Source of the DNA: Candidatus Hinthialibacteria bacterium OLB16
GTDB taxonomy: Bacteria > Hinthialibacterota > Hinthialibacteria > OLB16
Length of the DNA stretch: 64,000 nt
NCBI GenBank assembly: GCA_001567115.1
Contig: LMZT01000020.1
Span: 1 to 64,000 of the forward strand
Reading direction: 5' to 3'
Part shown: piece by piece, positions 33,643 to 49,704 of the stretch
How positions within the stretch are numbered: the first letter of the stretch is position 1
Layout: each line of letters starts with the position of its first letter
Notes under the pieces: generated by a model
Seen by the model: the letters and a program-made list of their open reading frames with translations, nothing else
What the model was told of the DNA's origin: nothing
Databases searched by the model: none
Program-made: the position numbers and the translations under genes

Positions 33643-34221
33643 CGGCTTCTTCTTCCCGGCCGGTCCGCGTGATCTTGTGTTCGACCAGGCGGGAGATGTC
33701 CACATCCGCGGTGATGGCTGAGTTTGAGGAAACCCCAGCCCCCTGCCTTCTCCGGACTGTCAGGCTTTTGATTTCAAGAACAGCGGGGTTGGTTTCGATC
33801 TGGTACAGAAACGCGGCCAGTGTGGGCCAGTCAGTCGAAATTGTCTTGAGTGAAAAGAGTAAATCTTGAAATCGTCATCGATGCGCTCAGGATTGCTCTC
33901 GATCTGGGAACTGGGAATGATGGCCGATTCCTCCAGCAGCCGGGTCAGCTCGGCATTGATCCGCTCCTTTTTCTCCTGTTCCGAGCCTTCAATCGACAAA
34001 CTCTCACGGATGCGTTCGAATTCGGCACGGTACTGTTTGGAGCGGACATACTGTTCTTTGGTTTTTTCCCAGTCTTTCCTGATGTCGGCAATCTGCATAT
34101 CCAGGCTCTTGTACTCGTTATACAACGGCCGGAATGCCAGCAGATATCCACCTCCGAACAGGATGGCCAGCGCAGTCAGCCCCATCAGGAATCTTTCACG
34201 TTTTGTCTGTAATACCGCCAT
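33639..34221 (-). CDS. PilO/GspM-like inner-membrane assembly protein, frameshifted
   Basis: A protein with one N-terminal membrane helix (FLMGLTALAILFGGGYLLAF), a coiled-coil (residues about 35-105, rich in Glu/Lys/Arg) and a C-terminal ferredoxin-like domain. The main frame ends at 33760 in an unlikely tail. The neighbouring frame reads SLKTISTDWPTLAAFLYQI and then LEIKSLTVRR, normal PilO sequence. One T restored to the A-run at 33853-33856 joins them. That second frame then runs open to 33515; a further base restored in the CCC at 33655-33657 would place its stop TGA (33641-33639) exactly over the next gene's ATG. I use that end as the likely one. The family stabilises PilN/GspL in the assembly platform. 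Confidence 0.7.
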
Positions 34222-34239: not shown

Positions 34240-35784
34240 CTATTCCTGAAGCTTGGGATTTGTGCGCAGGATGGCTGTGGTGCCAGTCACCTGCTGGTAG
34301 TTGGGGATGTCATACTCCCCCCTCATGCGGGACAGATCCTTCGTCTCCAGCCGTCCACGCTCGATGGTTCCCGCAAAGTATGGAGAGTCCCCCAGTATCT
34401 TCACATACGCATCCATATCCGCGCCGGTGTAAGTCTCGAGGTTCATGACCACTGAATCGGATTTCTTGAATGTCAACTGGGTGATTTTGACCTTGTCCGG
34501 GGTTCGCTCGAACAAATCCGACAGCACTTTGAAAGCGGAGTTCTGGCGGTCAATGTTCTGGTTGATCACCTTTAACTTTTTATCGATGACATCGATGTCC
34601 TTGATCTGGGGCTGGATCGCCAGGATTTTGGATTGATAGATTCCGGCCAGTTGTTTTTTGTTCCAGACCGAATGGCCCACCCAGCCTCCCAGGAGCAGCA
34701 GATTGAAAATCAGCAGGATGACAGAGTTGACCAGAAACTGCTTGCGGCGGGCGGCTGCGCGTTCGTGGTAAATCTCCTCCGGGACCAGATTGAAATGGTG
34801 GGTGTTGTGAATTTCCTCGAGTGCCAGACCGATCGGGCTGGAGTAAAAAAGAAGCGGCTCGTTGGATTTTCCAGGATTGATCGGCAGGCGTTGAGTTACA
34901 GGGATGGAAATTTCATTTTCGATGGCATCTTTCAATCCAGGGATTTCACTCCCTGGCCCCGAAAACACAACATACTTCGGCATGGTCCCCATCGGTTCAT
35001 GGGCAAATCCTGTTATCGAACGCTTCAGGTTGCGAACCAGGCCGGCCCACCACTGGTTCTGGTCCTCTGTCCAGTCCATCGGGGGCTTTTCAAAGCTGAT
35101 TCCAAGCGATCCGGATTCAAGATCATCGGTTGCAATCGGCGCAGTCCGTGAAAAGCGCAGCTGGCGGTCAACAATCAGCCCGATCAGGGAGCTCTGGTTA
35201 TCGAGGTGGAAAACTGCAAAGGGTTCCCCATCGCGTTCCCCTTCGCTGCGTGTAAAAGCATAGGCGCAGCCATGCACATCGACATCCAGCCGCAATGGCT
35301 CCAGCCCGGCTTCATCGAGCTCCTCGATGATCTGGTAGAGTTCATTGCGCCGGGCGGCAACCATCAGCACACGGGATTCATTCGCTCCGATCTGCTCGAT
35401 AATCCGATAGGAGATCTCCGCTTCGTCAGGAGGGAAGGGGAGATAACGCTCCACATCGAAAAACAGCATCTCTCGGACTTCTTCCGGATCCCCGGAAGGA
35501 AGGCTGACAAGCCGGGTGATGACATCCTCCCGCGGGACACCCACGATGACATCCCCCAGATCCTTGGGGTGTTTCGAGAGGGCTTCCTTGAGGGCGGCAC
35601 GGCGTCCGGCGAGCAGGTCTTCAGTCACTCCACGCCGCCCATGGGGGGCGTGGGCCTGGGTCAATCCCTTCAAGGAGATTTTTCCCGAGCGGTTGACTGA
35701 CAGTGTCGCAATCCGGACCAGGCGCTTGCCATACTCGATGCCGGTGACAGTTCGCGCCTTATGCGCGGTTTCTTTTTTGGCCAT
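34240..35784 (-). CDS. PilM-PilN fusion (GspL-like) assembly platform protein
   Basis: A 514-residue protein joining an actin-like PilM domain (residues about 1-320) to a PilN-like part. The PilM part has GIEYGKRLVRIATLSV, VIVGVPREDVITRLVSLPS, REMLFFDVERYLPFPPDEA and YVVFSGPGSEIPGL. The second part has a membrane helix LVNSVILLIFNLLLLGGWVG and a periplasmic region with a coiled-coil. In type IV pili PilM and PilN are separate and PilM sits in the cytoplasm on PilN; GspL in type II systems is a natural fusion of this kind. The ATG 35784 overlaps the upstream stop as TGATG. It follows gspK and precedes the PilO-like gene by 18 bases. Confidence 0.85.
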   Translation of the reverse strand: MAKKETAHKARTVTGIEYGKRLVRIATLSVNRSGKISLKGLTQAHAPHGRRGVTEDLLAGRRAALKEALSKHPKDLGDVIVGVPREDVITRLVSLPSGDPEEVREMLFFDVERYLPFPPDEAEISYRIIEQIGANESRVLMVAARRNELYQIIEELDEAGLEPLRLDVDVHGCAYAFTRSEGERDGEPFAVFHLDNQSSLIGLIVDRQLRFSRTAPIATDDLESGSLGISFEKPPMDWTEDQNQWWAGLVRNLKRSITGFAHEPMGTMPKYVVFSGPGSEIPGLKDAIENEISIPVTQRLPINPGKSNEPLLFYSSPIGLALEEIHNTHHFNLVPEEIYHERAAARRKQFLVNSVILLIFNLLLLGGWVGHSVWNKKQLAGIYQSKILAIQPQIKDIDVIDKKLKVINQNIDRQNSAFKVLSDLFERTPDKVKITQLTFKKSDSVVMNLETYTGADMDAYVKILGDSPYFAGTIERGRLETKDLSRMRGEYDIPNYQQVTGTTAILRTNPKLQE

Positions 35785-37149
35785 CAACCCTCTTCCTCAA
35801 AATTCGTGACCAGGAATTTCACCTGCTCTTCAGGCTCACGGTCGCGTTTGAATCGGCTGCGTGAGGCATCATCCAGCTCGATCTCCTCTGTGAAAAGCCT
35901 GAGAACAGTCACATGGATGGTCTTTTTAACATCATTGACGATGCCTGTCGAATGGATCACAAAATAGTCCGAACCCACTCCGAAACTTCCCGACAATCGA
36001 TCCGAATCAGTTGAGTCCAGACCGGCTTTGTCGATACCTTCGCTGTTTTCATCGGAATGGGGAAGAGTCCGGAACTTGCGGTCATCGTCCGATCCCAGCA
36101 TATCATCACTTCCATTACGGTATTTGACAATCTTCTCCGCAACAGTCTGGGCATGGTCCCCCGACTCCTTCTTCTCCCCAGACCATCGCCTGGATGACTT
36201 CAAATGGAGCTGAGTTGAGGTTTGGCTTTCCAATTCTCTCGTTCGACAGACCCGACTGGACAGCCAGAAAATCGCGGATCCCCAGCTGCAGCTTCCCATC
36301 TTCATTGTCATCCGGAGGTGATTCATCCCCATCATCTTCGTTGTCATCCAGCTCCCCGTTATGGTTTGCATCCTCTCCGACAAAAATCAGATTCGTCATT
36401 CCCGGGACCAGCAGGAGCTCCTCGACTGCGCTCAAAGGGCCATTGCGCATAACAGTCCGAGGCCCGTAATTGTCAATCTCTTCGGGTGACTGGTGTGGGT
36501 TGTAATAATAATCCTCATTCGCCTGATCTCCGAACTCCCAGCCCGGAATATCAGTTTCGTCGGTCAATGTCGGCTGGTCATCCGAGTCGACAAAATCGGT
36601 GATCGCCGCCCCCAGGGCCATGGCGTATTTCTCTTCGACTCCGCACACTTCGAGAAGCCGGCGCATGGTGATGTAATTGATGGCGTTGACATTGATCCGC
36701 CCGGAAAGATCCTCCACTTTGACCGTGAATGTGCCGCGGACATCCTCGATCCGTGCCCCTTCTTCTTTTTTTCGGCCTCCCGGATTCAGCCCGTAGGCTT
36801 CCGGATTGTACCCCCAGGCTTCCGATGGGGCATCGTACTGGTAGTTCTCATCCTTATCATCGACTTCAATCAGGTCATCCTCGCCGAGGACTCCCATGTC
36901 TTTAAGTTTGTCTTCGCGAAGGTAAACCATGGCCCTTGCAGCTCCGGCCCTGGCCAGATAGAGGGCCTTGATGCTGTTGGTCTGAAAACCGGTCATGCGG
37001 ATTTCCATCTGGCACTGGCGGGCATAAGTCCAGGCGATGACAGTCAATACCAGCAATGTCCAGATGACTGTCACCAGGATGATTCCCCTTTCGGATTCAG
37101 GCTTCTGATGAATCCCAGGGATGGAGGCAGGCTCGCGGGCGGCTGTCAT
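35784..37149 (-). CDS. gspK: Type II secretion minor pseudopilin GspK, frameshifted
   Basis: GspK is the largest minor pseudopilin and caps the pseudopilus tip. The N-terminal segment RGIILVTVIWTLLVLTVIAW is its helix; instead of an obvious G-F cleavage it has G-I with the usual GspK-like start. Then come YLARAGAARAMVYL, VEDLSGRINVNAI and the acidic, probably calcium-binding stretch EDANHNGELDDNEDD. The first frame ends near 36115 in a cysteine tail, while the second runs on to 35784 with AQTVAEKIVKYRNGS. One G added to the run at 36158-36162 joins them. Total length is about 455 residues. It overlaps gspJ as ATGA and the next gene as TGATG. Confidence 0.82.
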
Positions 37150-38132
37150 CGTCGGCGGCGGTCCCTTCGTCCACGGTCGCCGATTTTCCGGCTGGTAACA
37201 AGAGACCGGTCGCCATTCTTCAATCGTTCGAGCCGGTCGATGCTGGCACGGTAAGCGGTTCCAAAATCACTCTCATTGGCTCGTGCGCTCACAATGTTCA
37301 GGTCAGCTGCCGGTATGGCTGTGCTGGTTGACAGCCTCACATCCTCCGTGACCCGGACATCCACCCGGACCAGGCGGGGCAGGCCAATCCGTTCTTCATC
37401 CTCTTCAGTCAGCTCGTCCTCGGGGAGATCCCGGCAGAATTCGTTGATGACGACTTCCTCCGAATCCCAGTTGTCACGCCAGTCCTTGCCATCGTAATAC
37501 GCGAATTTGACCTCTTCGACTTTGTCGCATAAGGTTTGAACAATTGGCTTTTCGAAAAATCCGGCATTCGGAGGGGGTTCAAATCGCGGACGTGTCCGGC
37601 CGAGGGTATCTCCACCCATCGGGTTTCTTTGTTCCATCCGGCGCGCCTGGATTTCAGCCAGGCGTGCCTCGAGGAGGCTCCGGTAGATCTCTTTGACCAG
37701 CTTGCCTTTCTCAGAAACTTTGTAGCGCACCTCGCGGATATCCATCTTAGGGCCATTTTCGGTTTCCATTTCCTGCCGCACCACGAACTGCACCGAGCTC
37801 GAATCCCCTTTGAAGGTCACCTGCATCTGAGGCCCTTCCTCATCCAGGTAGTAATCTCCTTCCCCTAAGGGATCTTCTTCTTCCCGCTCATTGAACGGGA
37901 ACGAGGCAGGACCGAGCGCACGCCGGAGATCGAGGACCATGCGGTTCAATCCGGCGCGGGTGGTCTGGTACATCTCCATGCTCTCTTTGCCCACAGCCAG
38001 GGCTGTCGTCGCTGCTTTCAATGAAACAAAGATGGTTCCAACCACCAGCACAAAGATGGTGATCGCCAGCAGCAGTTCGATCAGTGTCATGCCAGACCTG
38101 CAACCTGTGGAGGGATGGAGTGGCCTGGTCAT
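37146..38132 (-). CDS. gspJ: Type II secretion minor pseudopilin GspJ
   Basis: A 328-residue prepilin-type protein. The leader MTRPLHPSTGCRSG is followed by MTLIELLLAITIFVLVVGTIF, giving a good prepilin peptidase site (G|MTLIE). The mature part is long for GspJ, with a LVRVDVRVTEDVRL strand and a very basic tail (DRGRRDRRRR) that overlaps the GspK start. Such Arg-rich tails are unusual and may be a feature of this family's members here. GspJ sits under GspK at the tip. The start overlaps the upstream gene (GspI) by 4 bases and the 3' end overlaps gspK by 4. Confidence 0.85.
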   Translation of the reverse strand: MTRPLHPSTGCRSGMTLIELLLAITIFVLVVGTIFVSLKAATTALAVGKESMEMYQTTRAGLNRMVLDLRRALGPASFPFNEREEEDPLGEGDYYLDEEGPQMQVTFKGDSSSVQFVVRQEMETENGPKMDIREVRYKVSEKGKLVKEIYRSLLEARLAEIQARRMEQRNPMGGDTLGRTRPRFEPPPNAGFFEKPIVQTLCDKVEEVKFAYYDGKDWRDNWDSEEVVINEFCRDLPEDELTEEDEERIGLPRLVRVDVRVTEDVRLSTSTAIPAADLNIVSARANESDFGTAYRASIDRLERLKNGDRSLVTSRKIGDRGRRDRRRR

Positions 38133-38638
38133 TTCTTGTATTCCTCGGGATAACGCGGCCGCGGGACTTCCGTCACAATCCGGTAATACTGTGTCTTGTC
38201 GTGGTTGTATAAATCACGGGCATCGGTTGCCCAGATGACAGTGACTGAAATCCTGCGGGTCCAGAACTCGTCGATATCCTCGCTCGAAGCGATCCAGCGG
38301 AAATTCGGATTTTCCCTGAAATCTCCTGAGCGCGGGATGACGAATCGATCATTGAGGGTGGCGCCTGCTTCCAGCTCCGACATCACCTTCTGCGCCAGGA
38401 AAAGAGCCTCTGTATACATCCGTGCTTCGGTCGTCGCCCTCAGTGAACTGAAGATCGCGTTCAGTGCTGCGGTCACACCAACTGCCAGAAGGGTTGTCGC
38501 AACAAGGACTTCGATCAGAAAAAACCCCTGTTGTTTCACTTTTCGAGAAAAGTTCCCCGCATGAGCAGGGGTTGGCCTGCTCCGGATGATCTGATTTTTG
38601 CCAGAAAATATATTCGTAATATCAGAGGAGATATTCAT
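38129..38638 (-). CDS. gspI: Type II secretion minor pseudopilin GspI
   Basis: Prepilin-type protein with the site QQG|FFLIEVLVATTLLAVGV. From the ATG 38638, which has a GGAGGAG ribosome site about 10 bases upstream, the leader would be about 37 residues, long for a prepilin. A GTG at 38539 gives the short leader MKQQG, with only a weak GGGGAA nearby, so both starts are possible. The mature part (about 130 residues) has a FLAQKVMSELEAG helix and a WTRRISVTVIWA strand, as in GspI. The first start overlaps the end of gspH by 17 bases; the stop overlaps gspJ by 4. Confidence 0.82.
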   Translation of the reverse strand: MNISSDITNIFSGKNQIIRSRPTPAHAGNFSRKVKQQGFFLIEVLVATTLLAVGVTAALNAIFSSLRATTEARMYTEALFLAQKVMSELEAGATLNDRFVIPRSGDFRENPNFRWIASSEDIDEFWTRRISVTVIWATDARDLYNHDKTQYYRIVTEVPRPRYPEEYKK

Positions 38639-39170
38639 ATTCGCGCCGCTCCTCCTCAGGAAGAATCCGCACACGTCCATCACTGCCCCGGATTTCAAGG
38701 ATCATCAGAGACCGGTATTCCGAGCTTCCTTTTGCCGTCGGAATTCCAAGGAAAACAAGGGTATCTATTGAGGTTCCATCTGGATTAAATGAGATGCGTG
38801 CATTCCGGCGTTTTTCTGTATCATCTTTTTCGGAGAAATACACCATCAGAAATTCGAAGTCCCCACCCAGCGAGCGAATCTGGTCGGGGCGGTATTTCAG
38901 TTTTTTGGAATGTTTTCCCGGCTGCAGGAATTCGAGCCAGTAATGGTTCTTGCGAAAATCGATGACAAAATCATGTTTGGCCTGCTGGAAAATACTCTTC
39001 TGATTTGCCAGGCGCAGAGTCATGGCCACTTCTTCAGCAACACTGTCGGCACGCTCCTTTGACAACACTGAACTGAACATCGGGATAGCGGCGCCCAGCA
39101 TCAGGCTGACAATCCCCAAAACAATGACCAGTTCGATCAGAGTGAAAGCGTGTTGTTTTGTTTTCGCCAT
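38622..39170 (-). CDS. gspH: Type II secretion minor pseudopilin GspH
   Basis: Prepilin-type protein of about 182 residues. The leader MAKTKQHA precedes FTLIELVIVLGIVSLMLGAA, a good prepilin motif although Ala rather than Gly precedes the cleavage site. The mature domain includes RLANQKSIFQQAKHDFVIDF, a pattern shared by GspH-type minor pilins, and NARISFNPDGTSIDTLVF. I chose the ATG at 39170 over 39197 because it gives a short basic leader. It overlaps gspI by 17 bases. The tip proteins GspH, GspI, GspJ and GspK are encoded in order here. Confidence 0.82.
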   Translation of the reverse strand: MAKTKQHAFTLIELVIVLGIVSLMLGAAIPMFSSVLSKERADSVAEEVAMTLRLANQKSIFQQAKHDFVIDFRKNHYWLEFLQPGKHSKKLKYRPDQIRSLGGDFEFLMVYFSEKDDTEKRRNARISFNPDGTSIDTLVFLGIPTAKGSSEYRSLMILEIRGSDGRVRILPEEERREYEYLL

Positions 39171-39269: not shown

Positions 39270-39575
39270 TTACACTCGGACCCCGGATCTCATTCCGGGA
39301 ATATCTCCCTGAAGCCCATCGTTCCGATCCGATTCCGGGGAGTAGTCAGGGTTCGAAATGAAGGGTGGCTGATACAGGGTTCGTTGAAATTCGAGCCTTT
39401 CCAGTCTCCTTTCAAGATTATGCAGGGCACCTATTTCCCGATGCCCCGATATTCCGCCCAGCCACAGGCCAAGCAGCAAACCAACAGTGAACACAGCGAG
39501 AAGAGCCTCGGTCAGAGTCATCGAACGCCATTGGGTTCTGACCGGCCATTTAAAGTTGACAACCGAGTCGCTCAT
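39270..39575 (-). CDS. Small pilin-like membrane protein
   Basis: A 101-residue protein with an 18-residue leader followed by MTLTEALLAVFTVGLLLGLW. Glu sits at +5 and a hydrophobic helix follows, as in pilins, but Ser rather than Gly or Ala precedes the presumed cleavage site, so processing is uncertain. The rest is short and basic with a coiled stretch LHNLERRLERLEFQR. It stands between gspG and gspH in the operon. I do not recognise a family; an extra minor pilin or an assembly helper are both possible. GGAGAG lies about 8 bases upstream of the start. Confidence 0.55.
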   Translation of the reverse strand: MSDSVVNFKWPVRTQWRSMTLTEALLAVFTVGLLLGLWLGGISGHREIGALHNLERRLERLEFQRTLYQPPFISNPDYSPESDRNDGLQGDIPGMRSGVRV

Positions 39576-39689: not shown

Positions 39690-40241
39690 TTAACCTCCGG
39701 TTCCACCACCACCGCCGGTACCGCCACCCGTTCCACCTCCACCGCTGGTACCGCCACCCGTTCCACCTCCACCACCGGTGCCGCCGGTTGTTCCTGTTCC
39801 AGTCCCTGTGGTTTCATCGCTTTCGGACAGCCAGTTGCCGATATCGTCCTCTGTCCCTTCCTGCTTGTCTTTGCCATTGGACCAGACATCCGGCCCTTCC
39901 AGCCCGTTTTCACTCTCCTCCCGGTAGTTGTATGGCTGCCCCCAGGGGTCGGTCGGCACCTGCGGCAGAAAAGACCGGTGCTCATCGGTCTTCTCGACCA
40001 GCGCCTGAATACCCTCATCGTCGCTTGGATAACGTCCCATGGTGACCTCATACATCCCCAAGGCTGTCTGAATCGCCTGGATATCGGTTTTCGCTCGAGT
40101 TTTACGTGCATCTTCACCGACACCCGTCAGGTTGGTGACTGCAACTCCAGCCAGAATGCCGAGAATCACGATCACCAGCATCAATTCGATCAAAGTAAAT
40201 CCTCGTTGTGCCTGCCGAGATCTTTCTCTCCATGAATTCAT
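39690..40241 (-). CDS. gspG: Type II secretion major pseudopilin GspG with glycine-rich C-terminal tail
   Basis: This is the main pseudopilus subunit. The start ATG 40241 has AGGAGG 10 bases upstream. The leader MNSWRERSRQAQRG precedes FTLIELMLVIVILGILAGVA, a textbook prepilin site. The conserved GspG domain follows: TDIQAIQTALGMYEV, GRYPSDDEGIQALVEK, PTDPWGQPYNYR. An acidic SNGKDKQEGTEDDIGNW segment, matching the family's calcium-binding end, comes next. Unlike normal GspG, which stops here, the protein continues for about 45 residues of Gly and Thr arranged in ten-residue repeats. The DNA encoding this tail is a 30-base direct repeat. About 183 residues in total. Confidence 0.92.
   Translation of the reverse strand: MNSWRERSRQAQRGFTLIELMLVIVILGILAGVAVTNLTGVGEDARKTRAKTDIQAIQTALGMYEVTMGRYPSDDEGIQALVEKTDEHRSFLPQVPTDPWGQPYNYREESENGLEGPDVWSNGKDKQEGTEDDIGNWLSESDETTGTGTGTTGGTGGGGGTGGGTSGGGGTGGGTGGGGGTGG
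39717..39776 (-). repeat. 30-base tandem repeat encoding Gly/Thr tail of GspG
   Basis: Two nearly identical 30-base units lie head to tail (39717-39746 and 39747-39776), followed by a partial third. In the minus-strand frame each encodes ten residues of the form GGGGTGGGT plus S or G. The units differ at only a few bases, which suggests recent slippage or selection on the repeat. The repeat is inside gspG and in frame, so changes in copy number would leave the reading frame intact. Confidence 0.8.
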
Positions 40242-40637: not shown

Positions 40638-41855
40638 TTACCCTCTCACCGCGGTTGACAGCTGGAAGATCGGAAGGATCATGGCCATCACGATAAATCC
40701 AACCACCAGCGCCATGCAGACGATCAGCAGAGGTTCGATCAGTGTCACAAGAGTTTTGATGGCACGATCGGTTTCTGTTTCATAAGTTTCTGCAATTCGC
40801 AGCAAGGCCCTTTCCAGCTCACCTGTTTCTTCGCCGACTGCCACCATGTTGGTGGCGACCGGTGGAAATATCTGGCTCTGCCGCATCTTGTTGGAAAGCC
40901 GTGCCCCCTCCGAAATATCCCCTTTTAGGGCAGCCACTTCATCCGCCAGAATCTTGTTGCTGATGACTGCGGTAACGACATCCAGTGCCTTGAGAATCGA
41001 TACTCCATTTCCCAGCAGGGTCCCGAGAGTGCGGGAAAACTTCGAAATCTCCTGTTTGCGTATCATGTCGCCCAGAACCGGGATGTGCAGTTTCGCCTGG
41101 TCGATCACCAGGCGGCCTTCCGGCTTGGCGACAAATTGCCGGAATGCATAAACGATCATGCAGATGGCTGCAATAAACAGATACCAGTAACCTCGAATCG
41201 CATCGCTGAATGTGATCAGCACCTTGGTAACTCGCGGCAGCTCGAGCTTCTGGTCCTCGAACATGTGCACAAAAGTCGGTACGACATAAACTGTCAGGAT
41301 GATGATGACCGCAAGCGCCACGCAAATCATGATGATCGGATAGGCCATCGCATTTCGGATGCGGCTGCGCAGATCGGCCTCTTTTTCCAGAAATTCCGCC
41401 AGCCGATCCAGAACTGTATCGAGATATCCTCCCACCTCGCCCGATCTGACCATGCTGGAATAGAGATCTGAAAACTGCCTCGGAAACTTCGCCAGTGCAT
41501 CGGAAAACGGTGTTCCCCCAGCGACATCGTTTTTCATGCTCCGGATCATGTTCTTCATCTTGTCGTTCTCGGTCTGCTCGATGAGCACATCCAGTGAACG
41601 GACTAAAGGCATTCCAGCTTTGGTCAGATCTGACAATTGTCTTGTAAAATTAACGATATCCGTGAACCGGATGCGGATCAGGCTCTGGAAGTTGACTTCT
41701 TTCTGTAATCCCCGGCCGCCTTCCTCTTCCACCGTTATCGGAAATACCTTCATCCCCTGCAGCTTGGAGATCACCAGACGGCGGTTTTCAGCTTCGAGGA
41801 TGCCCTCGACGATCTCTCCATTGGGGCGTTTGGCTTTGTAGGCAAATCGTGGCAT
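40638..41855 (-). CDS. gspF: Type II secretion platform protein GspF
   Basis: A 405-residue inner-membrane platform protein. The cytoplasmic lead MPRFAYKAKRPNGEIVEG is typical of the family. Two GspF repeats follow: TRQLSDLTKAGMPLVRSLDV with RSGEVGGYLDTVLDRLAEFL, and TLLGNGVSILKALDVVT with VGEETGELERALLRIAETY. The membrane helices are IIMICVALAVIIILTVYVV, YWYLFIAAICMIVYAF and the C-terminal LLIVCMALVVGFIVMAMIL. It lies just after gspE (3 bases apart) and before the small membrane protein. GspF is thought to couple ATPase movement to pseudopilin insertion. Confidence 0.93.
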   Translation of the reverse strand: MPRFAYKAKRPNGEIVEGILEAENRRLVISKLQGMKVFPITVEEEGGRGLQKEVNFQSLIRIRFTDIVNFTRQLSDLTKAGMPLVRSLDVLIEQTENDKMKNMIRSMKNDVAGGTPFSDALAKFPRQFSDLYSSMVRSGEVGGYLDTVLDRLAEFLEKEADLRSRIRNAMAYPIIMICVALAVIIILTVYVVPTFVHMFEDQKLELPRVTKVLITFSDAIRGYWYLFIAAICMIVYAFRQFVAKPEGRLVIDQAKLHIPVLGDMIRKQEISKFSRTLGTLLGNGVSILKALDVVTAVISNKILADEVAALKGDISEGARLSNKMRQSQIFPPVATNMVAVGEETGELERALLRIAETYETETDRAIKTLVTLIEPLLIVCMALVVGFIVMAMILPIFQLSTAVRG

Positions 41856-41858
41856 GGC

Positions 41859-43640
41859 TTAAAGCTCGAATCCGGCTTCGATTACCTTCTTTTCTTTGTT
41901 GAGTTCTTCGGTAATAGATTTTTCGAGGTACACATCCTCCTGCGTGACTCGAAGCAGCTCTTCGACTGTGGTCAGCCCGGATTTGACACGCCCCCAGCCA
42001 TACTGGCGGAGGGTTTCCATCCCCTGCTGCATGGCGCAACGCTTGATTTCTGCTCCGGATGCCCGGCGTGTAGTCAAATCCCGGAGCTCCTGCCCGATCG
42101 GCATCATTTCATAAATGCCGGTTCGGCCGCTGTACCCCAGGTATTTGCATTCTTCACACCCGCGCCCCTTAAAGAACGAAACCCCTGTATAATCATCCGG
42201 GCGGTATCCCAGAGCGGCCAGAAGTTCATGCTGGGGGGCAACTTCATCCTTGCAGTTGGGGCAGATCACACGCACCAGGCGCTGGGCGATCACACCAATC
42301 AGCGAGGAGGCTACCAGGAATGGCTCCACTCCCATATCCACCAGGCGGGGAATGGCTCCCGCGGCATCGTTCGTGTGCAGGGTGCTGAACACGAGGTGGC
42401 CGGTCAAAGCAGTTCGAATGGTGATCTCCGCAGTTTCCTGGTCACGGGTTTCACCGACCAGCATGATATCCGGGTCTTGACGGAGCAGGGATCGCAGCAC
42501 AGTGGCGAAACTCAGCCCGATCTTCGGCTGCACCTGGATCTGCGTGATCCCTTCCATCTGGTATTCGATCGGCTCTTCGATGGTGATGATCTTCACATCG
42601 GTCCGGTTCAATTCCGCCAGTGAGGCATAAAGGGTGGTGGTTTTTCCGGATCCGGTCGGTCCGGTAACCAGAATGATCCCATGGCTTCGATGGATCATCT
42701 TCTGCCAGATTTCGTAACTCCCCGGATCCATGCCCAGGCGGCCCAGGTCATACAGTTCACCACTGCTGTTGAGAATTCGGATGACTATGCTTTCCCCATA
42801 GGGTGTTGGAACTGTGGAGACACGAAGATCAAACTCAGTTCCTCCGCGCCGGATGGTGATGCGTCCATCCTGCGGGAGGCGTTTCTCGGCGATGTTCATG
42901 TCCGCCATGATCTTGATGCGTGAAATAATCGCGGCCTGGTACCTTCGGACTGCCGGCGGCAGAGAGGCTTCATATAACAGGCCATCGATACGGTACCGGA
43001 TGCGCAGACGGTTATCGAATGGCTCGATGTGTATATCGGTGGCGCGATCATTGATCGCTTCGCTCATGACCTGATTCACAAAACGGATGATCGAGGCATC
43101 TTCCGAGAGCTCTTCGATATCTCCATCGGCTGCCGCAGAGACATCCGTGGCAAACTCATCGCCTTCCTCTTCCATCAGGCTGTCGACCGTGTCCGATCCG
43201 ATGCCGTAATAACGCTTGATCGCGGTCTTGATATCCGAACTGTATGCCAGCAGAGGCTCTACCTCGCAGCGCAGCAGAAGCTTCAGATCATCGAAAGCGT
43301 CATGGTTCAGGGGGTCGGCGGTCGCGACTTTGATGCAGCCATTTTCGCGCTCAACTGGTACCAGGTGGTAACGGTGAACCAGGCGGACAGGAACTAGCTG
43401 CAGGATGTCTCGCTGGATGGAGATATCCTTGATTTCGACTGTTTCGATGCCCAGATAATCGCAAATGGCATCGTGGAGCTTCTGGATGTCGACAATGCTG
43501 TTCTCCACCAGGATAGCATCCAGATCCCCACCCTGGTTGGATTGGATTGCAAGCGCCCGATTCAGGTCGTCTTCAGTCATAACCCCGAGGGTGACCAGAA
43601 GCTCTCCATAGGAACGTCCCAAAACCGGAGTTTCTGCCAT
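41859..43640 (-). CDS. gspE: Type II secretion ATPase GspE
   Basis: A 593-residue cytoplasmic ATPase. The N-terminal MshEN-like domain begins YGELLVTLGVMTEDDLNRAL near residue 11 and keeps a Gln at its end. The linker leads to the motor with Walker A GPTGSGKTTTLY near residue 326, IMLVGETRDQETAEI, the His box STLHTNDAAGA and the zinc four-Cys element CPNC...CEEC, then GRTGIYEM. It is the first gene of the secretion operon. A promoter-like sequence, a palindrome and a hairpin are in the untranslated region upstream. It resembles PilB and GspE equally; the context of gspG-K makes GspE the better name. Confidence 0.93.
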   Translation of the reverse strand: MAETPVLGRSYGELLVTLGVMTEDDLNRALAIQSNQGGDLDAILVENSIVDIQKLHDAICDYLGIETVEIKDISIQRDILQLVPVRLVHRYHLVPVERENGCIKVATADPLNHDAFDDLKLLLRCEVEPLLAYSSDIKTAIKRYYGIGSDTVDSLMEEEGDEFATDVSAAADGDIEELSEDASIIRFVNQVMSEAINDRATDIHIEPFDNRLRIRYRIDGLLYEASLPPAVRRYQAAIISRIKIMADMNIAEKRLPQDGRITIRRGGTEFDLRVSTVPTPYGESIVIRILNSSGELYDLGRLGMDPGSYEIWQKMIHRSHGIILVTGPTGSGKTTTLYASLAELNRTDVKIITIEEPIEYQMEGITQIQVQPKIGLSFATVLRSLLRQDPDIMLVGETRDQETAEITIRTALTGHLVFSTLHTNDAAGAIPRLVDMGVEPFLVASSLIGVIAQRLVRVICPNCKDEVAPQHELLAALGYRPDDYTGVSFFKGRGCEECKYLGYSGRTGIYEMMPIGQELRDLTTRRASGAEIKRCAMQQGMETLRQYGWGRVKSGLTTVEELLRVTQEDVYLEKSITEELNKEKKVIEAGFEL

Positions 43641-44533: not shown

Positions 44534-47095
44534 ATGAAATCATGTTCAGCAGGCCTGATACTGATCTTCTGCTCGCTTGCATGGGCTCAATCCCCGCCAT
44601 CTGTCATCCACTTGGATCGAACCTGGCTGTTCAAACCCGACTCGGCCGGCAGCGGTTTGGAGGAACAGTGGTTTTCGCGAAATATCGACCTCACTGGCTG
44701 GGTTTCGATCCAGACAGGGCGAAGGTGGGAAGATCAGGGTTATCCTGACCTGAATGGGGCAGCCTGGTTCCGCAAGGAAATTGAAGTTCCTGAATCCTGG
44801 AAAGGGTCTCCGATCTGGTTGGTGCTTGGGGGTGTCAATGATGAATATGATCTCTTCTGCAATGGCAGCAGGGTCAATTCATTTGGTGAACCACCGAAAA
44901 AATCTGTGGCATCCGACCTGACAGTCGCCGAGTTAAGTCCTTTCCTTCACCCGGGGGAAAAAAACCTTCTGGTGCTTCGTGTCATCGATTGGTCAGGCAG
45001 TGGCGGCATTCAACGAGACCCCTGTTTCCTCACGATCGAGCCACAATGCCTGCCTCCCCTGCCAAAGATTGCCTGCCAGCTTAAATACCCGGAAAAACAG
45101 CTTCAGGTGGAGTGCGACTTGACTTCACTCGGGAGAGATTTCCTTTCTGGCGACCGGCATCCGCTCCATGCACGTTTTGAATTAGACCTGAGGACGCCAG
45201 CTGATCCTGTTCAGGCTCAGGAAATCGATGTCCAGCCGGGCAGTCGATATCTCACGACCGTCTTTAAAATGCCGGCTGCTTCCGAACATTTCTGCCAGGT
45301 GCGGGTTTCGATTCCGGCAGGCCTGAATTCTCAATGGAATTATGCCAATTCCCAGGATGTCCATTGGAATCCCTGCCCCACCTGGGATAAATACCCTCAC
45401 CTCAAGATTCGCAATAATTTTGTGACAGACCTGTCTGATATCGATGTCCCACCCGGCCAAATAACGGCAGGCACATTCCCCAATCCCCGATCCGGCTGGG
45501 TTTGTTTTTCCATCACGGCAGAAAATTCTTCGATCCCTGCACCGGATAGCTTCTCAGTCCTTGTGGACAGTGAAAGCCAGGCATTGATCTTCCGTGCCAA
45601 TCCGAATCAACCCGTTCTCGAAGCCATGCGGATGCTGCCGGAGGGAAACCACAGCCTTGAAATCGAATCAAAGAACCAGCTGCATCTGAATATCCGCACC
45701 ATCCCGGAACTGGCATACACTTATTACCCTTCTTCTTCCCACCTCAAACCCCAGGGTCCCTATGACTGGAAATACCTTGAACGTTACATTCTTCCCCAGG
45801 CCAATACCCTGGTTACCACCGGGGGAGCTCCGCCCGAAGAATTGGAAAGCTGGCACAAGGAAGGGAGGCAGTGGCTCGCTAATGCCGGACTGCCTGGTCT
45901 GGGCGCCTCCGCCCCACAGGCAGATGCAGTCTGCCGGACCTGGCTGGAGACTCCTGTCCTTTTTGATCCTCCAGTTTCGGGGATCATCGTCGATGAGTTC
46001 ATGGATGCCTCTCCGCGCCACTACCAGGCCTGGAAGGATGCCTGGAAATGCCTGGTGGATCATCCCAATTGGGGATCGAAGGTGTTCTATGCTTTCAGTG
46101 GTGACATCTACCACCTCGGTGATCCGGAAAGCCGTGAATTCTGTCGCGCACTTCTCGCGAGAGGAGACCGCTTTGCGGTAGAAAAATATTTCCCTGAGGA
46201 ACCTTCCCTGGAGATTGCTCAAAACTGGCTGGTCAGCGGCCTCCAGACAACCCTTCTGGACTGGAAAAATCTGTTCCCTGGATTCGAGAAACACCTTGTT
46301 TATTGCCTCGGAAACCTCACCGCTCCACCCGAATCCCTGAATACCAACCCCGGGGTCGATCTGAAAGTTTACATGGACATGCAGATGCACTTTCTGGCCA
46401 CTGATCCTGCCTTCTGGGGGCTTTTTGGCCTGATGCAATACACGGCCAGTTATGCCGATGAGGAAATCCAGCGCTATGCTTTCCGTCTCTTCAGACATTA
46501 CTGCATTGAAGGATCAACCGAGCGAATGAATCAGGATCCTTATCACCTGACACATCTTATCAATCCCGATTTTGAGCAGGGGCTGAATGGCTGGGAAGTT
46601 CAGGCTTCTTCTCCATCCGATATCCACTCCGCATCCATGGAAGGTTTCAGCTGGCTGCAGGGGCGTTACCCGCGAACCAGCCAGGGGGATCACTTTGCGC
46701 TGATCCATTCGGGATCATCCGGCCAGATTCGTCTGAGCCAGAAAGTCCTGAACCTGAAACCCGGACGGCCCTATTCCCTCAAGTTTATTACCGCCGATCT
46801 GGACCACCTCGACCGACCGCATGAAACCGCTCTCTCCTTTGATCTGGAAGATGTCCAGCTCCAGCCTGGCCTTTCTTTTAAAGCCTTGTATCCCAGCTGC
46901 TACTCGCACACCCTGGGGGACTACAACCGTGAACATCCCGCCTATTTCACCTGCCATAGAATTGTGTTTTATCCTGAGAGAGAGACCTCCAATCTGAAGT
47001 TTTCGCCCATTGCCCAAGAAAACGGCCGGGATGATCCACCCTCGGGCAGGATTGCGTTGAACTTTGTTGAAATACAGCCTTTTGAGAAACCTTAA
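44534..47095 (+). CDS. Large secreted protein with GH2-type sugar-binding fold; possible glycosidase
   Basis: An 853-residue exported protein. A signal peptide (MKSCSAGLILIFCSLAWAQS) follows a GGGGAGG ribosome site at ATG 44534. The first domain (about 25-160) resembles the jelly-roll of GH2 enzymes, with DLNGAAWFRKEIEVPESW and NDEYDLFCNGSRVNSFGEPP. A beta-rich region follows, then from residue about 400 a barrel-like segment with TLVTTGGAPPEELESWHK, SGIIVDEFMDASPRHYQAW (DE pair as a possible acid) and FAVEKYFPEEPSLE. A C-terminal carbohydrate-binding-like part is FEQGLNGWEVQ. I cannot match it to a named glycoside hydrolase family; activity is inferred. It converges on the sensor kinase gene. 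Confidence 0.65.
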   Translation: MKSCSAGLILIFCSLAWAQSPPSVIHLDRTWLFKPDSAGSGLEEQWFSRNIDLTGWVSIQTGRRWEDQGYPDLNGAAWFRKEIEVPESWKGSPIWLVLGGVNDEYDLFCNGSRVNSFGEPPKKSVASDLTVAELSPFLHPGEKNLLVLRVIDWSGSGGIQRDPCFLTIEPQCLPPLPKIACQLKYPEKQLQVECDLTSLGRDFLSGDRHPLHARFELDLRTPADPVQAQEIDVQPGSRYLTTVFKMPAASEHFCQVRVSIPAGLNSQWNYANSQDVHWNPCPTWDKYPHLKIRNNFVTDLSDIDVPPGQITAGTFPNPRSGWVCFSITAENSSIPAPDSFSVLVDSESQALIFRANPNQPVLEAMRMLPEGNHSLEIESKNQLHLNIRTIPELAYTYYPSSSHLKPQGPYDWKYLERYILPQANTLVTTGGAPPEELESWHKEGRQWLANAGLPGLGASAPQADAVCRTWLETPVLFDPPVSGIIVDEFMDASPRHYQAWKDAWKCLVDHPNWGSKVFYAFSGDIYHLGDPESREFCRALLARGDRFAVEKYFPEEPSLEIAQNWLVSGLQTTLLDWKNLFPGFEKHLVYCLGNLTAPPESLNTNPGVDLKVYMDMQMHFLATDPAFWGLFGLMQYTASYADEEIQRYAFRLFRHYCIEGSTERMNQDPYHLTHLINPDFEQGLNGWEVQASSPSDIHSASMEGFSWLQGRYPRTSQGDHFALIHSGSSGQIRLSQKVLNLKPGRPYSLKFITADLDHLDRPHETALSFDLEDVQLQPGLSFKALYPSCYSHTLGDYNREHPAYFTCHRIVFYPERETSNLKFSPIAQENGRDDPPSGRIALNFVEIQPFEKP

Positions 47096-47113
47096 AAGGA
47101 AAGAGGCCTTTTA
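47094..47113. terminator. Weak bidirectional terminator-like hairpin
   Basis: AAAAGG (47094-47099) and CCTTTT (47108-47113) form a 6-bp stem overlapping both convergent stop codons, with U-rich ends on both strands. The stem is AT-rich, so efficiency is doubtful. Confidence 0.35.
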
Positions 47114-49704
47114 TTGAGGGCCTGGGGAGATTGGATTTCCATTGGGGCCAAGGACCTGGTGAATCTTCTCTTTGAGTTCTTTCATCCGGTAAGGTTTCTG
47201 AAGAAAGCCTGAAACTTCGATCCCATCGAAACGTTTTTGAAATTTCTTCCTGGCTGAATCCACTTGAAAGAATTACAGGAATCACTGGATCGATCCGGCG
47301 GATTTCACGGTACATTTCCTCTCCATCCATCTTCGGCATGGTGATGTCGAGAAGGATGCAGCAGATGCTCCGGTGTTCTTTCTGGAAAACTTCGAGTCCT
47401 GATTCCCCATCGTGTGCCATCAGCACATTGAATCCCATCGAACTCAGAATCTTCGAGCCAACATCGAGGATGGTCTGCTCATCATCGACAAGCAGGATCG
47501 TGCCAGTCCGCAGGATTGGGGGTTCGTCCGCAACACACTGCCCAGTGCCGATGACGGGCGGCTGGATGGCTGGCAGGAGCACCTGGAAAGTGGTCCCGGT
47601 GCCGATATTGCTGCTGACCTGAATGATTCCATCGTGGCCCTGGACAATGCCCAGCACTGCGGCCAGCCCAAGCCCTCTGCCGGTGAATTTGGTGGTGAAA
47701 AACGGCTCGAAGATTCTCTTTTGTGTGGTTTCAGACATTCCGCACCCGGAGTCTTTAATGACCAGGCTCACATATTTTCCTTCCGGCATGTCGCCTGTGC
47801 GTGGAACGGGATCAATACTTTTTGAATTCAACTCCAGGATTCCTGTGGAAATCTGGATGCTGCCTGAATCGTCCCCGATGGCTTCGGCTGCATTGATGAT
47901 CAGGTTCATGATGACCTGCCGCAGCTGGGATTCGTCACCCTTGACCCAGGGAGGTTGAGAGGAGGGATGGAAAGTCAGCGCCACCTTCTTTGGAATCGAG
48001 ACCATCAGCATCTCTTTCATTTCTTCGATGATGCCATTCAGGTTAAGGGGTTGAATGACAAAATGCCCTCTCCCTGAGTAAGCCAGCATCTGGCGGCAGA
48101 TGTCCGAAGCATGAAGAGAAGCCTGCAATGCCTTTGCCAGGCTGTGGGAAGTTGATGTTTCGGCGGGCAGGTCCGCCAGGCTGAGCTCGATATTCCCGAT
48201 GATGGCCTGCAGCAGATTGTTGAAGTCATGCGCGATTCCGCCCGCCAGAATCCCCAGGCTTTCGAGCTTCTGTGTCTGCTGCAGCAGGCGCTCCATTTCC
48301 AGGCGTTGTTTTTCCCCGGCCTTCAGGTCCGTAATGTCATGGGCGACCTGGACTATTCCATAGAGACGGCCATCGGCATCTCGAAGGGGAGTCGATGTGA
48401 CCAGGAAAGTGCCACCCAGCAATGGATGATCAAGTTCACCCCGAAAGAAAGCCGCAGAATCCGGGGTTACACCATACTGATTGTGGAGATCGTGCTGGCT
48501 GCCTCCAGGATAAAAATTGAAATTACGGATCTGTTCCTGAGAAAGTGGCTCCATTCGTTCCTGGAGGGCCTGATTCATGCGCTGAACCCTGAATTCGGGA
48601 TCCAGCAGGCAGACCAGGTCCGGAACTGCATTGAAGGTCCGTTCCCAGGCTTCCTGGGCATCACCCAGGGCACGCTGGCTCTCGATCAGGGATGTGACAT
48701 TCCGAAGTTGAACAATATGGCCGGTGGGTTGGTGGTGGTATTTTCGAAGGGGATTGATCTGGACATCCAGCCATTGTTTTCCATCGGCTGCTTGAATCAG
48801 GTGGGTTGCTCCCGGGGAGCTGCTTCCATCTGCGTGTCCGATCAAGTCCGGCCAGGCTGGAAGAACTGCCACGATTGGCTGGCCGATATGGTTGCTGGAA
48901 ATTCCCAGAAGCTTCCTTGCTGCTGGATTCGAATCGATCAGGCGATCCTGGTTGTCTGCCACCAGAACTCCATCGGCCTGGGAGGTAAAAAGAACTTCAT
49001 AGGCGATTGGGGCAAGATCCAGAAGCCGGAAACGATAGATCGCCCATATCGTGACCAGTCCGGTAACTGTCAAAGCCATCGGTGTGAAGTCGATTTCCGG
49101 GATAGGGCTGTTGCCGGTGATAAAAGCAATGCTCGTCAGGATGGGAACCACAACTCCCGCCAGCAGCAGCCAGGACTGTTTGCGATACAGATTTGGCAGC
49201 CAGACCAGATGATGGACCAGGCAGCCTGTCCCGAACAGCAGGCAGCCATAGGTAAAAACTATGTTCAGATAAAAAAGCGGTCCATGGGCATATCGCAGGA
49301 TGTGTGGAGTGGCCGGACTGATTTCCGGCCAGAACAATCCGTGAAAATCATTCGTGAAGGCACCGATGACCGTAATTGCCGGGATGATCCAGATGCCGAT
49401 TCTGACACCTGGTTTCAGAAAACGGTGATTTCCGCAGTACTGGATAATGAACAGAAACCAGGCCGGGCCGGTTGCGACAACCCCCAGATAACTCAGCTTG
49501 CCGCACCAGACCTTCAACCCCTGGCCAGGGATCACCAGTTCCATTCCGGCGAAAAAACGCCCATACCGCAATCCCGCCAAGCAGCAGGACTGCGCTGTGA
49601 GCGCCCTGAGTCAGCCAGCGCCTGCGCCAGGTATAAACAGCCAGTCCCCCCGCCAGCACTGAGGTGATCCCATGGATCAGGACCACGATCCACAATGGTA
49701 CCAT
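47112..49704 (-). CDS. Hybrid sensor histidine kinase with receiver domain, two frameshifts
   Basis: A membrane sensor of about 863 residues. The N-terminal part (residues about 1-230) has seven hydrophobic helices of the 7TM histidine-kinase type. PAS-like segments follow (VLFTSQADGVLVADNQDRL and FNAVPDLVCLLDPEFRV). The phosphoacceptor box GGIAHDFNNLLQAIIGN, ATP-binding NLIINAAEAIGDDSG, DSGCGMSE and GRGLGLAAV and a receiver with ILLVDDEQTILDVG and ILLDITMPKMDG complete it. One extra T at 49552-49557 breaks the frame after IAVWAFF, and one extra A at 47234-47238 near the end hides the true tail ISKRFDGIEVSGFLQKPY, which ends at 47112. Removing these gives a normal kinase. Its signal is unknown. 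Confidence 0.85.

Follow-up and report, generated by a model that had tools for sequence, protein, structure and literature searches.

Does an otherwise ordinary major pseudopilin carry a repetitive C-terminal tail, and would such a tail matter to the secretion filament that the protein builds? The gene concerned, gspG, occupies positions 39690–40241 on the minus strand of the window (the whole stretch of DNA analysed, 64,000 nucleotides); it starts at an ATG at 40241, with AAGGAGG 10 nt upstream, ends at a TAA at 39690–39692 and encodes 183 amino acids. The protein displays the prepilin-type N-terminal methylation motif GFTLIE (PF07963, 1.2e-9, residues 10–34) and the T2SSG domain (PF08334, 2.4e-25, residues 38–137), the last residue of which is the tryptophan of TEDDIGNW. 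The Pfam limits and an alignment of 45 homologues define a canonical GspG core of residues 1–137 (39831–40241, minus strand). The conserved acidic motif of the calcium site is present near the C-terminus, with D118, S121, D125 and D133 invariant or nearly so among the 45 homologues, and calcium binding itself is predicted. The best PDB matches, by both sequence and fold, are the GspG/PulG/EpsG/XcpT pseudopilins (PF08334; PDB 5wda, 3fu1, 3g20, 4lw9), with structures of EpsG, GspG and PulG as the fold matches of the model; the window protein shares with this group the N-methylation motif, the long N-terminal helix and the C-terminal calcium-site motif, and its gene shares the operon place between gspF and gspH.

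The gene lies within a gspE-F-G-H-I-J-K-L-M-C cluster whose order is the same in G002, a genome from a related genus of the same family. The neighbouring gspF (40638–41855, PF00482) and gspE (41859–43640, PF00437) are 84% and 83% identical to their G002 counterparts, a gspH-like pseudopilin gene (38622–39167, PF07963) is syntenic with G002, and gspJ (PF11612) is found at 37146–38132, all on the minus strand. No gene for the secretin GspD stands beside gspC in the cluster, the secretin genes of this genome lying at other places; a secretin gene in the same cluster is usual for type II secretion systems, not defining for GspG. As the genome contains a single strong GspG match (E ≤ 1e-20), the protein is probably the major, most abundant pseudopilus subunit, a reading to which its family and gene context also point and which agrees with the first-pass annotation. 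Apart from its tail, it is an ordinary type II secretion GspG.

Known GspG/PulG/EpsG/XcpT proteins stop a few residues past the calcium site, whereas the window GspG adds 46 residues, Gly/Thr-rich and repeated; a chain end so close to the calcium-site region is usual for GspG, not a defining feature. The extension, delimited by the Pfam domain end and low pLDDT (residues 138–183; 39693–39830, minus strand), opens with the acidic LSESDE before turning Gly/Thr-rich, and can be written as LSESDETTGTGTGTTGG followed by three copies of GT[G/S]GGGGTGG, with one G shared. Residues 138–153 read LSESDETTGTGTGTTG and are followed by three ten-residue units, each encoded by 30 bp on the minus strand and delimited by Tandem Repeats Finder (TRF) and a codon test: GTGGGGGTGG (residues 154–163; 39753–39782), GTSGGGGTGG (residues 164–173; 39723–39752) and again GTGGGGGTGG (residues 174–183; 39693–39722). 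The Gly/Thr stretch (residues 144–183; 39812–39693) contains no internal stop or frame change and runs in frame to the TAA, confirming the tail where the first-pass annotation had placed it. The 30-base direct repeat described there also stands, but the nine-letter unit given for it, GGGGTGGGT, has to be replaced by the ten-residue GTGGGGGTGG (once GTSGGGGTGG).

TRF reports a period of 30 bp repeated 2.9 times (91% matches, score 144), and every row of its output for the window falls in the gspG tail, making this a single place. Because a peptide of Gly and Thr may seem repetitive through its composition, codon choice was compared at a lag of 10 codons, the TRF period: 16 of the 24 same-residue pairs use the identical codon, against 7.7 expected when codons are shuffled among synonymous positions, and a value of 16 was reached in 5 of 20,000 such trials. 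Agreement above chance between the units indicates that the DNA itself was duplicated, over and above any bias in the peptide; the repeat is a DNA-level duplication. The glycine codons of the tail are GGT in 13 of 27 cases, compared with 21 of 223 in neighbouring genes. The exact Gly/Thr DNA pattern has no second occurrence in the 4.05-Mb genome, and a mobile or genome-wide repeat is rejected, the pattern being confined to the gspG tail. The poly-Gly places sampled in the genome yielded one other protein whose tail is of low complexity, although of another type: a 463-residue protein with a GGY/GGS-rich C-terminus (L187 1937–3325, minus strand; G000 contig 105).

The AlphaFold2 model, built with 45 homologues, gives a confident fold for the core, with pLDDT of about 90 or more, and a tail at pLDDT 47–61 that is essentially without secondary structure. 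The tail is accordingly predicted to be disordered, in line with the flexibility that had been proposed for it. In PulG, hydrogen exchange and cryo-EM place the C-terminal peptide 127–134 outside the subunit contacts of the pilus, not buried, although assembly into the fibre leaves it more ordered than in the monomer (PMC6692295). Since that peptide is unburied and makes no inter-subunit contact, a tail attached at the same end of GspG should, by homology with PulG, face outward and leave the filament surface, as expected for the surface decoration suggested by the first-pass annotation; the spacer or binding role put forward with it stays hypothetical.

Comparison with relatives shows how restricted the tail is. 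In G002 the core is 73% identical and a 36-residue Gly/Ser/Thr tail, AAEDTGGESGSGSGSGGGTSTSGGTGGGGGGGGGGE, occupies the same position; in G001, the third genome of the family, the core is 58% identical and is followed by 13 residues, QSDEDLEDSGGEE. The three genera of the family therefore differ in the residues that follow the core (46, 36 and 13 for the window, G002 and G001, respectively), and in the remaining members of the class GspG stops about 3–7 residues past it. The orthologues to which the first-pass annotation had looked for corroboration thus provide it in part: the G002 tail is comparable, whereas G001 has a short tail only and more distant relatives have none. G001 also encodes a second GspG-like protein downstream of gspG (L184 9904–10359, plus strand), the N-terminus of which lacks the usual GFTLIE.

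Among 134 GspG-like proteins from all collected loci, a census in which tails of any composition are detectable, the median extension beyond the domain is 3 residues, which bears out the earlier statement that the family normally ends near this point; four extensions exceed 13 residues, and no more than two, those of the window protein and G002, are longer than 15. Of 386 genomes searched in a way that detects Gly/Thr/Ser tails only and would miss those of other compositions, 125 contained matches at E ≤ 1e-17; among these, the proteins of the window and G002 alone run in frame into a tail. Seemingly long matches in other genomes (e.g. G275, G414, G405 and G028) proved to be read-through of the stop, and the censuses reject the tail as a common feature of GspG. 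A scan of the genome collection for relatives returned only distant GspGs, at ≤47% identity. When residue order is taken into account, the two long tails resemble each other slightly more than shuffled versions do (0.029), which weakly favours a common origin of the two sequences followed by separate growth; no sequence motif is conserved among the tails of the family, and the G002 tail has, by eye, no obvious 30-bp array. Our searches of the open-access literature turned up no bacterial GspG described as having a Gly-rich tail.

The account that we consider reasonably probable is that the major pseudopilin of this type II secretion system is a normal one bearing a family-specific disordered tail, grown by duplication, tolerated because it points outward, and with weak or no selected function. 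Within one bacterial family, the gspG coding sequence would have been extended by a disordered tail passing from acidic to Gly/Thr/Ser-rich, an ancestral form of which, perhaps 15–30 residues long, would predate the split of two of the genera. In the window lineage, tandem duplication of the GGN-rich DNA, through replication slippage or (unequal) recombination, would then have lengthened it. With a C-terminus that faces away from the filament and stays out of the contacts between packed subunits, GspG may tolerate the product, which would clothe the filament in a hydrated brush; any selected function, other than remaining soluble and flexible, would be weak or lacking. Against this account, both long tails are in frame and almost devoid of hydrophobic residues in two genera at 73% core identity, which could point to selection for a function.

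Bacterial surface proteins are known to carry Gly-rich disordered tails or linkers and low-complexity repeats, and the window tail resembles these in composition, disorder, tandem DNA units and a unit length that preserves the frame; unlike them, it occupies the free end of a subunit that polymerises into a filament in the periplasm. In its usual form GspG is compact and stops at the calcium site. A naturally long-tailed example suggests that its C-terminus can carry extra material, and it offers a natural experiment on the additional mass that the periplasmic piston and the secretin channel can accommodate. As the evidence stands, the tail is a small lineage-specific variation, and probably a minor decoration of the secretion filament that is real and very uncommon; were it selected, it would give pseudopili a novel type of surface property.

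Selection for a function is the principal alternative, and one that we regard as rather unlikely: every subunit would carry a hydrated bristle, serving to keep the pseudopilus spaced or lubricated inside the periplasm or secretin, or to hold substrate. The tails of the two genera share composition and differ in sequence, as is typical of entropic bristles; the tail is borne by the only strong GspG of the genome, and the C-terminus of PulG faces outward. Moreover, the mitochondrial GspG of jakobids, malawimonads and heteroloboseans has a conserved C-terminal extension of ~100 residues, of unknown function (PMC8134430). The likeness is one of position, with no homology claimed, and the mitochondrial extension is a conserved domain whereas the window tail is a low-complexity repeat; nevertheless, it shows that C-terminal additions to GspG are not unprecedented and that this position can carry them. 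Against a selected bristle, the third member of the family has just 13 residues beyond its core, about 3–5 suffice in other phyla and elsewhere in the class, and the tails hold no conserved motif.

A combined form, in which a selected, length-adjustable and disordered Gly/Thr/Ser brush, one tail per GspG, covers the pseudopilus and alters its movement through the periplasm and secretin or holds substrates, appears improbable. Still more doubtful is that slippage makes the length of the tail variable within the population, thereby tuning the filament. The three units are near-identical and, as the first-pass annotation recognised, their gain or loss keeps the frame, 30 bp being a multiple of three; the tail also differs in length between genera. 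However, known bacterial contingency loci usually consist of many short units, while three imperfect 30-bp units form a short array, one with no obvious equivalent in the G002 tail.

Least probable of all is that the tail arose from a sequencing or assembly error (a frame error or a collapsed or expanded repeat): the other open frame would yield a V/E/R/A/P-rich tail, not a Gly/Thr one, and G002, an independent genome, shows a Gly-rich tail in the corresponding position, so a frame-error origin is rejected. Three other genes of the contig do contain frame breaks. In gspK (35784–37149, minus strand), tblastn against G002 gives two pieces in different frames (37149–36169 in frame −2 and 36173–35787 in frame −3), with the break, near 36165–36175, adjoining a G5 run; an assembly indel or a pseudogene may be responsible. 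A second break in the same cluster affects gspM, near 33860 (minus strand; frames −2 and −1 relative to G002), and a sensor kinase gene with a receiver domain (46947–49580, minus strand) changes frame at ~47220 inside the receiver, the expected end of which is readable in another frame. These breaks may be assembly indels or real decay; if they are errors, indels would not be rare in this contig. Because of them, small length errors in the gspG repeat are possible and the exact number of its units remains in doubt, but that doubt is confined to the count and the tail itself stays in place.

Several further features of the cluster and of the genomes were observed. Between gspG and gspH, positions 39270–39575 (minus strand) encode a small membrane protein of 101 residues without a Pfam match, the N-terminal stretch of which resembles a prepilin helix (MTLTEALLAVFTVG). 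GspJ has an Arg-rich basic C-terminal tail (e.g. DRGRRDRRRR) in all three family genomes, at 37146–37250 (minus strand) in the window, ~15650–15738 in L183 and ~12740–12838 in L184; its charge is opposite to that of the acidic start of the GspG extension. Finally, the prepilin-type set is unusually large: pilin-like N-termini match dozens of times in each genome, with 49 matches in G000 and between 38 and at least 56 across the class.
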